Shown: in pieces, positions 24,945-31,866 of the stretch | Numbering within the stretch: position 1 is the stretch's first letter | Layout of the letters: every line of letters starts with the position of its first letter | DNA from: a virus | Length of the DNA stretch: 38,280 nt | Strand: one strand, 5' to 3' | Virus record (IMG/VR): IMGVR_UViG_3300048591_000435 | Coordinates: 1 to 38,280 of that record | Position numbers and translations under genes: made by a program | Notes under the pieces: model-generated | What the model was told of the DNA's origin: nothing | Databases searched by the model: none | What the model saw: the letters and a program-made list of their open reading frames with translations, nothing else

Positions 24945-25388
24945 TCAAGCAGGGGGCATAGCGCCTCCGAACCAGTTAGCCGCCATGCTGGCTGCGGTGC
25001 GGGCGTTATAGGCCTCGGCGTGGGTCAGGCACTCGTACTGCATCCATGGGTTGCCGGGGAACTGTTCGCCGGCGTGACAGGGTGGGCACCAGAGCGGGGT
25101 AGCCATGCCGTCGAGGTGGTTGATGCGCCCGTCCAGCCATGCCAGTTGGGCGAAGAGGTACGCGAGCTTGTGCAGGCGCTTCCATGTGGCGGGCTCACCG
25201 GTCGGCTTGCCCTCGTACTGCCAGCCTGCGTCATTCCATGCCGCAATGCCCAGACCGATGCGTTTCAGGGTGTTGAGGGCGATATCGCGGTCCTCTGCCA
25301 GTTGCTGCTCGCAGGTCGCGATGCGCTCCAGTCGTGCGGCCTCGATGGCGGCCAGGTCAGGACTTTTCCGGGGTGCTTTCACTGCCAT
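24945..25388 (-). CDS. Helical protein with C-terminal zinc knuckle, 147 aa
   Basis: ATG 25388 has GGAGG seven bases upstream and overlaps the end of the prim-pol gene by 10 bases. The first 70 residues are helical and charged, and the next part holds WKRLHKLAYLFAQLAWLDGRI. The end carries LWCPPC and YECLTHAEAY (CxxC and CxxH). It is not recognised; it may serve in replication given its neighbours. Confidence 0.6.
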   Translation of the reverse strand: MAVKAPRKSPDLAAIEAARLERIATCEQQLAEDRDIALNTLKRIGLGIAAWNDAGWQYEGKPTGEPATWKRLHKLAYLFAQLAWLDGRINHLDGMATPLWCPPCHAGEQFPGNPWMQYECLTHAEAYNARTAASMAANWFGGAMPPA

Positions 25389-27517
25389 TCGTTGTCCTCC
25401 TGATTTTCTCTTGCCTCGGCCCATCCCTTTTTCGCCAACCCCCCCTTCTTAGGGGGGGGGTGGGTTGGCGAAAAACTTGGCGAATGGGAATCGCCAACCT
25501 TGGCGATTTTTTCGCCAACCTTGGCGATTCCCTCGGGGGTCAACTGGTAGACCACGGAGCGCCCTTCGCCGACCCTTTCGAGCACTCCCTGGTTGGTCAA
25601 AAGGGTCACGTAGCCGGCGATTGTGGTGTCCGAAACGTTGAGCCGGGAGCGGAGTTCCGCGTTCCCTTTTGGCCCCTCTTCATATATCGTTCTCAGCATA
25701 ATTTCCGCTTTGGAAGGGATCGCTTTCGCGGGGTGTGTTGAGAGGTCGAAACGCTCGCAGATGATGGTTCCGTCACGCCCGCCGATGATGAACGTGTGGG
25801 ATTCGGGGAGGTTGCCGAAGCGGTTCTTGGTGTTGGTCAGTTTCATCTTGCCGACGGTCTGGTGGTCGAATTCCTCAACCTGCTTGGCGAACCATTGGTA
25901 GTCGGCGATGTTCTTCTTTTGGCTGGCGCCGCGTGGTCCGCTGGTGGATTCGGTGTTCTTGGCGATATGGTCGATGACCACGACGGCGGGCCTCGGGGTC
26001 GTGTGGCGGGCAAGGCGAAAAGGGACGGTAGTCATCCAGTGGGTGACTTCACTGTTCTCGTTCTCGCGCACGCCGGAGTTGCTGAGCAGTTCGGACATTG
26101 CGTCGAACACCACGAGGGCTGGGTAGACCTCCTCTACCAGGTCAACGAGCAGGTCGACATCAGCGGAGTTGAAGCCAGAGAAGGGGTAGTAATAGAGGTA
26201 TTCATCAAGGGCGGCCGGATCGACGCCCATATCGCGCAGGCGGGCGCCGACGAGTTTGATCCCCCCCTCTTCATCGATGAACAGGACGCGATGGCCGGCG
26301 GCGATAGCGTCACGGATGAGCGCGAGCAGGAGCATCGTCTTACCGCTGCCACCCTCGCCGTAGAAGAGGCAGACGGACTCCCTGAAGAAGATCCCATCGA
26401 TGAGCCACTCGGGCTCTGGGATGCCTTCAGTAATCGCCTCGCCCACCAGAACGCGCCGGAAGGGCGAGATTTTCTCTGGTGGGGCGATGATCTCGCCGGT
26501 GTCCGGGTCAACGTCTGTGCGCGTTGTGGGGGGCTTGGGGATGGCAACGCCGCCGCTGCGGTAGCCGGCCTTCCAGAGTTCCCGTGCTGCGGCTGACTGG
26601 TCGCCCTTGTAATTGAGGAGGGCGTAGGCCGCGAACTTCGTGTAGGAGTTGGGCACGGGGTCGAACGCGGTCGAGGTGGTGAACACCATCAGGGTGTCGC
26701 GGTCGGTGTGCCCGGTGGTGGCGGACGTGCCAATGTCTTTGCCGGGGCGGCGCCAATGCGTCGTCTGCCCGCGAGAGAAGACGCGTCGCCAGCCGTGCGG
26801 CTCGAGGATGTCGCTCCAGGAGACCTGCCTCCCAAACAGGTCGCCCGGGCGGTCGCCGTCGATGACGGGCGAGGCGGGTCGTGCGGTGAATTCGATGTGG
26901 AGTTCATGGAACGTCCGCGCGAGGTCCCAGAGGAGTTTGCGTTCTTCCGGGGTGATGGTGGGGATGTCTTCGACGCGGCCGCGGAGGACTTCATAGGGGA
27001 AGCCGGTGTCGTGAACCTTCCCGTGGGACGGCGCCATGATCGAGAAGCCGCCATTGCCACGGGTCTCGATGAGCGTCTTGATGCGGTCCTCAGGGTGCTT
27101 CATCTCCTCGGGCGTCTTGTTCCGCTGGGCGAGCTTCGTGTTTCCGGCGATGGTGTCGCAGCGGTAGTACCAGTGGACGCCGCCATTGGGGGTAGCTTCG
27201 GCGTACGCCTCATCGATGCGGGCGATGAGGTCGCCCATCCCGGCTTTCTCCCCGACCTCACAGAAGGCGAGATAGGTGGGGTAGAAGTCGAACTCGAAAA
27301 GCTCGAGGTTGCCGGAGACTTCGCCGGTGATGCAGCCGATGCCGTCGCGCCCGTCGCGGTACCAGCCCTTGAGGGTGGCCGGGTCTGGCCGTTCCGCCTG
27401 GTATTGCTTCCAGAGGTCGATGGGGCGCTTGGTGCCGTCCTCTTTGGGCGGGATGACCGCGAGGCCGGCTTCGTAGTAGCGCCGCGCCACTGCGAGCATG
27501 TCGATGGTGTCGGTCAT
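25379..27517 (-). CDS. Primase-polymerase/helicase replication protein
   Basis: This 712-aa protein joins an N-terminal archaeo-eukaryotic primase-polymerase (prim-pol) to a RepA-like ATPase. The prim-pol shows EFDFYP (E75, D77), NGGVHWYYR with H115, and RGNGGFSIMAPS (153-163), the three hallmark motifs. The ATPase has Walker A GEGGSGKT (387-394), FIDEEGG after it, Walker B VVFDAMSE (469-476) and VVVIDHIAKN. A winged-helix segment follows (about 600-665). The last 60 residues repeat AKVGE/AKVGD and are encoded by the site cluster at 25433-25526. It would prime and unwind phage DNA and may recognise its own origin. The ATG 27517 has GAGGTG upstream; a longer frame upstream is spurious. Confidence 0.87.
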   Translation of the reverse strand: MTDTIDMLAVARRYYEAGLAVIPPKEDGTKRPIDLWKQYQAERPDPATLKGWYRDGRDGIGCITGEVSGNLELFEFDFYPTYLAFCEVGEKAGMGDLIARIDEAYAEATPNGGVHWYYRCDTIAGNTKLAQRNKTPEEMKHPEDRIKTLIETRGNGGFSIMAPSHGKVHDTGFPYEVLRGRVEDIPTITPEERKLLWDLARTFHELHIEFTARPASPVIDGDRPGDLFGRQVSWSDILEPHGWRRVFSRGQTTHWRRPGKDIGTSATTGHTDRDTLMVFTTSTAFDPVPNSYTKFAAYALLNYKGDQSAAARELWKAGYRSGGVAIPKPPTTRTDVDPDTGEIIAPPEKISPFRRVLVGEAITEGIPEPEWLIDGIFFRESVCLFYGEGGSGKTMLLLALIRDAIAAGHRVLFIDEEGGIKLVGARLRDMGVDPAALDEYLYYYPFSGFNSADVDLLVDLVEEVYPALVVFDAMSELLSNSGVRENENSEVTHWMTTVPFRLARHTTPRPAVVVIDHIAKNTESTSGPRGASQKKNIADYQWFAKQVEEFDHQTVGKMKLTNTKNRFGNLPESHTFIIGGRDGTIICERFDLSTHPAKAIPSKAEIMLRTIYEEGPKGNAELRSRLNVSDTTIAGYVTLLTNQGVLERVGEGRSVVYQLTPEGIAKVGEKIAKVGDSHSPSFSPTHPPPKKGGLAKKGWAEARENQEDNEWQ
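25433..25526. repeat. Iteron-like cluster of TTGGCG/CGCCAA sites, origin candidate
   Basis: Seven hexamers of one type lie in 94 bases: CGCCAA at 25433, 25492 and 25513, and TTGGCG at 25465, 25477, 25500 and 25521. Two identical 14-bp palindromes CGCCAACCTTGGCG start 21 bases apart (25492 and 25513), two helical turns, and the whole 25486-25532 region is itself palindromic around a T-run. It sits in the 3' coding end of the replication gene. Repeated coding for AKVG explains part of it, but not the opposite-facing copies beyond the gene's repeats. Confidence 0.55.
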
Positions 27518-31184: not shown

Positions 31185-31417
31185 CGGCTCCACCTCTCTT
31201 CGCGCATCTCTTCCCGCTCCTCGGCCTCGCGTTCGTAGTCCGGCTCGAAGTCTTCGTCGTTCACATGGCAGTCCACCTGGCAGCAGTGCAAGTCGTTCTC
31301 GCACATGTCGCAGGCGCACTCGCACTCCGCATCGACCGCCTCGGCATCGAGGAGTGGCGGCTCCAGGTATGCCGCCTCGGCGGCGGCAAACGCGCGGGCG
31401 GTGTCGGGCCCGGTCAT
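31181..31417 (-). CDS. Cys-rich acidic protein, 78 aa
   Basis: Residues 32-50 hold seven Cys (32, 34, 36, 39, 45, 46, 50) in CECACDMCENDLHCCQVDC, followed by H51, a cluster able to bind two or more zinc ions or other soft metals. The rest is very acidic (DEDFEPDYEREAEEREEMREE). Such a composition is metallothionein-like in Cys density only; a DNA-mimic role through the acidic end is also possible. ATGA overlaps on both sides. Confidence 0.6.
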   Translation of the reverse strand: MTGPDTARAFAAAEAAYLEPPLLDAEAVDAECECACDMCENDLHCCQVDCHVNDEDFEPDYEREAEEREEMREERWSR

Positions 31418-31866
31418 GACTGTGCCTCCGGGAGCTTCTCGGGCCAATCGACGGTCAGCGCCATGAGCGCATCGACCGCAGCGAGCATCTTCGCGCCGTG
31501 CTCCGGGGAAGCGCCCTCAGACCAGCGGGTAGGGTCGCCCCAATGCTCCCGCGCTTCGGGGACGCTGAAATAGCGGCAACCCGCCGAGATGCGCAGTCCC
31601 TCAGACGTGAGGGTGAGCGCGACCATCCAGTCATCAACCGGCCCAATCGTGGCGTAATACACTCCGACCGCGCCGGTGAGGTCCGCGCCGTAGAGGTCCG
31701 CGCCGTAGAGGTCCGCGCCGGTGAGGTCCGCGTAGGTGAGGTCCGCGTAGGTGAGGTCCGCGCCGGATTTGGCTGCCTGTTCGACAGCCTCGCGCAGCGT
31801 CGTGGCCTTTTCGGCCACGAATGCGACATTTCCATCGCGGCGGTAGATGGTGGTTCCGGTTGTCAT
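31414..31866 (-). CDS. Pentapeptide-repeat protein, 150 aa
   Basis: Residues 36-65 are six perfect A-D-L-x-x repeats (ADLTY, ADLTY, ADLTG, ADLYG, ADLYG, ADLTG), about one and a half turns of a right-handed beta helix. Before it lies a small N-terminal domain with RRDGNVAFVAEK and after it an alpha/beta domain (MVALTLTSEGLRISAGCRYFSVPEAREHWG). Pentapeptide proteins can copy the shape of DNA and inhibit gyrase; six repeats are fewer than in such inhibitors. The DNA shows tandem 15-bp repeats here. The C-terminal domain resembles that of small bacterial 'SVPEAREHW' proteins. Confidence 0.78.
   Translation of the reverse strand: MTTGTTIYRRDGNVAFVAEKATTLREAVEQAAKSGADLTYADLTYADLTGADLYGADLYGADLTGAVGVYYATIGPVDDWMVALTLTSEGLRISAGCRYFSVPEAREHWGDPTRWSEGASPEHGAKMLAAVDALMALTVDWPEKLPEAQS
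31666..31770. repeat. 15-bp tandem repeat array in pentapeptide gene
   Basis: Seven units of the type gtccgcgccgtagag/gtccgcgtaggtgag, period 15, with several adjacent units identical. It encodes the ADLxx repeats and can change in number by slippage. Confidence 0.9.

Follow-up and report, generated by a model that had tools for sequence, protein, structure and literature searches.

The locus described here raises the question of whether a phage holds its replication origin within the coding sequence of its own replication initiator. The window, that is, the whole 38,280-nt stretch of viral DNA that was analysed, has matches to terminase, major head protein, endolysin, Holliday junction resolvase, exonuclease and DNA methyltransferase, and on the evidence of its sequence it is a tailed phage. 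This freshwater phage appears to carry its own replication start inside the tail end of its replication gene, where a cluster of short repeats surrounds a hairpin.

The replication gene and its surroundings

The gene that harbours the cluster, referred to as rep, starts with an ATG at 27517 and stops at 25379-25381. Its features and its neighbour are as follows.

25379-27517, minus strand: rep, encoding a 712-aa Prim-Pol/AAA_25 RecA-fold helicase/winged-helix protein, a putative replication initiator (Pfam)
26963-27487, minus strand: Prim-Pol domain, residues 11-185 (Pfam; pLDDT mostly >80)
25952-26464, minus strand: AAA_25 RecA-fold helicase domain, residues 352-522 (Pfam and structure comparison)
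25529-25708, minus strand: winged-helix domain HTH_27, residues 604-663 (Pfam)
25382-25528, minus strand: C-terminal tail, residues 664-712, translated through the repeat module (alignment of relatives)
24945-25388, minus strand: the gene after rep, the ATG of which overlaps the rep stop codon (ATGGCAGTGA; sequence)

The Pfam matches of the protein (PF09250, 4e-14; PF13481, 6e-16; PF13463, 1e-7) bear out the initial annotation, which had placed the cluster at the 3′ end of a prim-pol/helicase gene with a winged helix: Prim-Pol, AAA_25 and HTH_27 are all found. Structure comparison of the helicase domain matched the RecA, KaiC and RadA folds, within a structure model of the whole protein that is of moderate confidence only (mean pLDDT 64.7, with residues 671-712 below 50). 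By analogy with SaPI Rep and Cch2 (PMC7581432), the winged helix is likely to be the iteron-binding domain. Because the next gene starts with an ATG that overlaps the rep stop, the two genes leave no space between them that the module could occupy, and it is translated as part of rep.

Organization of the repeat cluster and hairpin

The hexamer TTGGCG or its complement CGCCAA occurs at 25433, 25465, 25477, 25492, 25500, 25513 and 25521, and a recount thus returned exactly the seven copies in 94 bases (25433-25526) that had been claimed. The density elsewhere is low: the whole window holds 41 hexamers, against 28 expected from dinucleotide shuffling, and no more than three fell within any 94 bp in 200 first-order Markov shuffles of the window. 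The repeats do form a cluster, and it is not random. Its elements are listed below, those without a strand being symmetrical or mixed in orientation.

25428-25532, no strand: origin-like module of about 105 bp, with iterons in both orientations and a hairpin
25513-25526, no strand: iteron inverted pair 1, CGCCAACCTTGGCG
25492-25505, no strand: iteron inverted pair 2, identical to pair 1 and 21 bp from it
25477-25482, plus strand: single iteron TTGGCG
25465-25470, plus strand: iteron TTGGCG inside a hairpin arm
25433-25438, minus strand: iteron in the opposite hairpin arm (CGCCAA)
25428-25475, no strand: hairpin or potential cruciform of 48 nt, TTTTTCGCCAACCC...GGGTTGGCGAAAAA

The two 14-mers had been described as identical palindromes; they are indeed identical, with a spacing of 21 bp, yet each is an inverted repeat with 6-bp arms around a CC spacer and not a perfect palindrome. 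The hairpin at 25428-25475 had been missed, and the hexamers at 25433 and 25465 belong to its arms, which are 18 nt long, 94% complementary and enclose a core of a C-run, TAAG and a G-run. The folding z score is -9.5 for the 111-nt module strand and -5.7 for the hairpin alone. No AT-rich unwinding element was found around the module, the AT content of 40-bp windows there being at most 53%.

The highest raw repeat score of the window belongs to another place, a 15-bp tandem array of 6.6 copies at 31668-31766, within the minus-strand ORF 31414-31866 for a pentapeptide-repeat-like protein. This array was considered as a rival origin, but it is a 15-bp coding unit in one orientation and was rejected.

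Position of the module in relatives

Relatives were drawn from viral contigs, genome contigs and annotated phages and were sorted into 38 clusters according to the peptide words they share, with repeats scored as 8-mers repeated in both orientations within 200 bp. The best both-orientation cluster of the whole locus lay no more than 300 bp from the rep stop in 23 of the 38 clusters, compared with 2.4 expected, a count that was equalled in none of 200,000 simulations, whereas the 5′ end of rep held the best cluster in three of the 38. Of the 21 clusters that scored strongly, 17 did so at the 3′ end, compared with none at the 5′ end. The pattern was first spotted by eye in L003-L023, and the loci L029-L108 were fetched later.

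Two apparent misses can be accounted for: L099 carries an extra gene ahead of the module, and L006 has a frameshift in its rep ORF, so that the module lies beyond the true end of rep. No 3′-end module was detected in about a third of the 38 clusters (including L010, L011, L013-L015, L021, L025 and L028), and the 3′-end arrangement is common, not universal. The initial annotation had pointed to related phages as a check on the hexamers themselves; there the exact motif is swapped for others, while in most families the module keeps its position at the 3′ end of this gene. This recurrence of position (23 of 38) and of layout is the strongest evidence for the module.

Some loci show further arrangements. 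L078, L099, L110 and L111 have an inserted gene, or an additional annotated ORF, separating the rep stop from a module that is still next in line. Very strong repeat arrays follow the rep stop in L106 (~5.1 kb, score 201) and L090 (~5.3 kb, score 290).

L020, the closest relative, has 96.5% identity overall and does not differ at all within the cluster; as the ~250 bp preceding the cluster are also nearly unchanged, it is too similar to test constraint. This locus, JAUPWC010000541, is a 3.6-kb contig binned as Verrucomicrobiota with a rep protein that is 99% identical, and is probably a phage contig within a Verrucomicrobiota bin. When the C-terminal half was used as the query, no relatives were found in the viral contigs.

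A recurring layout with changing sequence

Read in the direction of the gene, the typical layout in full-length relatives is two to four direct iterons, a spacer, one iteron, the hairpin and inverted iterons, the hairpin following the pattern CCCCC(T)CT-TA-AG(A)GGGG. Examples are L060 (copies of ACCGTTCCGC around CCCCCTCTATAGAGGGG), L081 (CCCCCCTATAAGGGGGG), L087 and L090; in L046, L039 and L050 the hairpin is kept without the C-run. The best hairpin of the ~10-kb locus falls inside the module in 15 of 37 clusters, compared with 2.3 expected, and does so in most of the full-length loci with the C-run layout. In each of the matching whole viral records (G002, G005 and G007) the hairpin pattern occurs in one place only. 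The iteron sequences vary from family to family and the layout recurs.

The family of L033 and L040 separates the DNA from the peptide. In ten members the module lies inside the coding sequence (peptide NLTDLTDP...NLTDFAPPYKGGRSVKSVS), and in five (L040, L041, L042, L047 and L078, the last with its inserted gene) the same DNA follows the stop codon, so that what has been kept is the DNA and not the peptide. Read-through into the module is also seen in the window, in L005 and in plasmid pKRAD02, and the overlap of the module with coding sequence therefore probably arose more than once.

Covariation was examined in two ways. Co-variation of the winged helix with the iterons amounted to nothing beyond overall relatedness (partial r = -0.08, p = 0.82), in a low-power comparison with iterons read by eye. 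Base-pair covariation in the hairpin showed no excess over shuffles, which is put down to a MAFFT alignment in which the hairpin axes are out of register.

Plasmids and isolated phages

Comparable modules are present on small actinobacterial plasmids, the helicases of which are homologous to that of the phage. In the 12.9-kb plasmid pKRAD02 of Kineococcus radiotolerans, the 3′ coding end of an AAA_25 gene contains GGGAACC repeats in both orientations together with a long hairpin, and this is the strongest both-orientation cluster of the plasmid (score 98, compared with 16 for the next). In the 7.9-kb plasmid p-XQ-29-C of Streptomyces griseoaurantiacus, CCTGCCC iterons and a CCCCTCTAGGGG hairpin directly follow the stop codon of an AAA family ATPase gene (38 versus 14). 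No Prim-Pol domain was detected in the AAA_25 protein of pKRAD02, and the protein of p-XQ-29-C, at 370 aa, is probably too short to contain one; the module thus tracks the helicase at least as much as the primase.

In the Streptomyces phage-plasmid NZ_CP108372, GCAGGGACC repeats come directly after the Prim-Pol gene. In the Arthrobacter phages GlobiWarming and RootBeer, eight of the ten and all seven of the AGTGACA sites of the genome, respectively, surround a palindrome immediately 3′ of the primase/helicase gene, the GlobiWarming cluster being at 39.1-39.3 kb; the GlobiWarming helicase is D5-like. A small annotated ORF of GlobiWarming, gp64 (L109, 39004-39345), shares its DNA with the iteron module that follows the primase/helicase gene, and its annotation may be spurious.

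Alternative functions of the module

A site with the same appearance could serve the winged-helix protein in autoregulation, partition, packaging or integration and not in initiation. Operators and parS-like sites typically show clusters of inverted sites too, and nucleotide skew marks no origin at the module: the GC-skew switch that the initial annotation had proposed to look for at 25.4 kb is not clearly present, the minimum of the detrended cumulative skew being at 21.4 kb. However, the module lies at the 3′ end of rep, away from the rep promoter, its recurrent neighbour is the replication gene itself, and it is found on small plasmids as well as on phages of different genome types; moreover, the same place is occupied by the origin in published elements whose initiators are self-loading (PMC7581432, PMC4234260). 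A role other than initiation is accordingly considered unlikely.

The hairpin might instead act where the rep operon ends, as a transcription terminator or as an element of the mRNA, the hexamers being incidental, as would suit a strong hairpin near the end of a gene and a weak terminator-like match at 25477-25497. On the same strand, however, a T-run precedes the 25428-25475 stem and an A-run follows it, so neither strand gives a stem followed by a T-run and the hairpin is not an intrinsic terminator; it is also absent from the list of predicted intrinsic terminators. Termination here would cut off the downstream gene, whose start lies in the rep stop codon; the iterons that flank the stem in both orientations would be left unexplained; and related modules often continue into iterons and not into T-runs. 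We regard this explanation as very unlikely.

The last alternative concerns the peptide. For the 37-residue peptide PEGIAKVGEKIAKVGDSHSPSFSPTHPPPKKGGLAKK, 20,000 synonymous recodings that followed the codon usage of the window gave a mean of 0.9 hexamers and a maximum of five, so that none reached the seven observed; likewise, none of 1,000 synonymous recodings folded as stably as the observed sequence. The third-position GC content is 0.82 in the body of rep and 0.65 in the tail. Coding therefore explains little of the cluster, in line with the earlier estimate that a repeated AKVG peptide would account for only part of it. The reading in which a repetitive AKVG-type tail, which does contain repeated IAKVGEKIAKVGD, gave rise to the DNA repeats as a side effect is thus already contradicted and barely credible, the tail also being missing from most relatives in the alignment and modelled with very low confidence, and related modules being found outside any rep coding sequence.

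Proposed role as a replication origin

The segment 25428-25532 is, in our judgement, probably the replication origin of the phage, or the main binding site of its initiator, within the 3′ tail of the initiator gene itself. We infer origin function and initiator binding from an arrangement that is non-random, kept independently of coding in one family and recurrent at the same place in relatives, plasmids and isolates, and because the origins of SaPI and pRN1 sit at a matching position (PMC7581432, PMC4234260). The GC skew, the AT content and the comparison of winged helices with iterons lend this reading no support. The iteron-like origin candidate that was initially suggested in or next to the replication gene is in this respect supported, having held up against both the hexamer density of the window and the comparison with relatives.

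In the proposed mechanism, the C-terminal winged helix of the Prim-Pol/helicase protein would bind the TTGGCGA iterons, the RecA-fold helicase would assemble at the module and open the duplex, and the hairpin, which could be extruded on either strand, would supply a single-stranded start site to the fused Prim-Pol. With the next gene starting on the rep stop codon, rep would read through the origin and gain an extra C-terminal tail, which is probably dispensable.

The window case is one instance of a wider pattern of origin-like modules at the 3′ end of Prim-Pol/AAA_25 initiator genes. Tentatively, and with somewhat more doubt than confidence, this pattern may represent a new class of origin in phages and small actinobacterial plasmids, in which fast-changing iterons surround a conserved C-run/TA/G-run cruciform and are served by a RecA-fold (AAA_25) initiator; many phages would carry this initiator as a fusion with a Prim-Pol able to prime on the hairpin once it is extruded. 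If so, the class would be a one-protein counterpart of RSF1010 RepA/B′/C, with an origin that has repeatedly invaded the 3′ coding end of its initiator gene. Searches of open-access papers, judged by title and abstract, brought up none that describes such a module.

The pattern suggests a sequence rule for finding origins, namely to look for a hairpin surrounded by iterons where a Prim-Pol or AAA_25 gene ends at its 3′ side, and this could be used to locate the replication starts of many uncultivated freshwater phages. It also illustrates how, in origins that overlap an initiator coding sequence, the iteron sequences change quickly while layout and position are retained. The mechanism could be tested in cultivable systems, such as the Arthrobacter phages and the Streptomyces and Kineococcus plasmids.

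Comparison with known replication systems

In SaPI Rep and SCCmec Cch2, the C-terminal domain binds iterons directly downstream of their own genes (PMC7581432). The phage module resembles the SaPI arrangement in that short iterons are located where the gene for a putative initiator helicase ends or immediately beyond, and phage rep may by analogy be likened to SaPI Rep, a self-loading initiator helicase (PMC7581432). However, SaPI Rep and Cch2 are SF3/AAA+ helicases (DUF927, D5-like), whereas the phage helicase has only the AAA_25 RecA fold; unlike that of SaPI, the phage module includes the C-run/TA/G-run hairpin and lies inside the coding sequence.

The crenarchaeal plasmid pRN1 requires a stem-loop origin just 3′ of the Prim-Pol gene for ORF904, a protein that showed no specific binding in vitro (PMC4234260). 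As in ORF904, a Prim-Pol, a helicase and a C-terminal winged helix are combined in one phage protein. The helicase of pRN1 is of the SF3 type, in contrast to the AAA_25 RecA fold of the phage, and its origin is a stem-loop of ~100 nt with no iterons, whereas the phage module has iterons.

The oriV of the IncQ plasmid RSF1010 contains iterons and hairpins (ssiA and ssiB), which are used by an AEP primase (PMC4234260, PMC4538821). The functions predicted for the phage protein correspond to those of RSF1010 RepA, RepB′ and RepC, i.e. a helicase, an AEP primase starting at hairpins and an iteron-binding initiator. They would be encoded by one fused gene in the phage and are encoded by separate repA, repB′ and repC in RSF1010; the phage has one palindromic hairpin in place of two separate ssi hairpins, and the correspondence is one of function rather than of demonstrated sequence membership.

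The biochemically studied gp43 of corynephage BFK20, a Prim-Pol-clade protein with a RecA-type domain (PMC4538821), aligns to the window protein with an E value of 3e-6. The 3′ end of its gene has no both-orientation iteron cluster, so it is not a positive case. A stem-loop without iterons, CTAAGCGCCC...GGGCGCTTAG, is present in BFK20 (L124) within ~100 nt after the gp43 stop and could be a pRN1-like origin or a terminator. The alpha protein of phage P4, a primase-helicase-winged helix protein, binds repeats at its own origin (PMC4234260); unlike phage rep, it has a Toprim primase, in a comparison made by description only.

The module thus does not belong to any of the three origin systems, being set apart from SaPI and pRN1 by the helicase fold, from pRN1 also by the presence of iterons and from RSF1010 by gene organization. 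It is best read as analogous to the origins of SaPI and pRN1, with a different helicase fold and a variant architecture.
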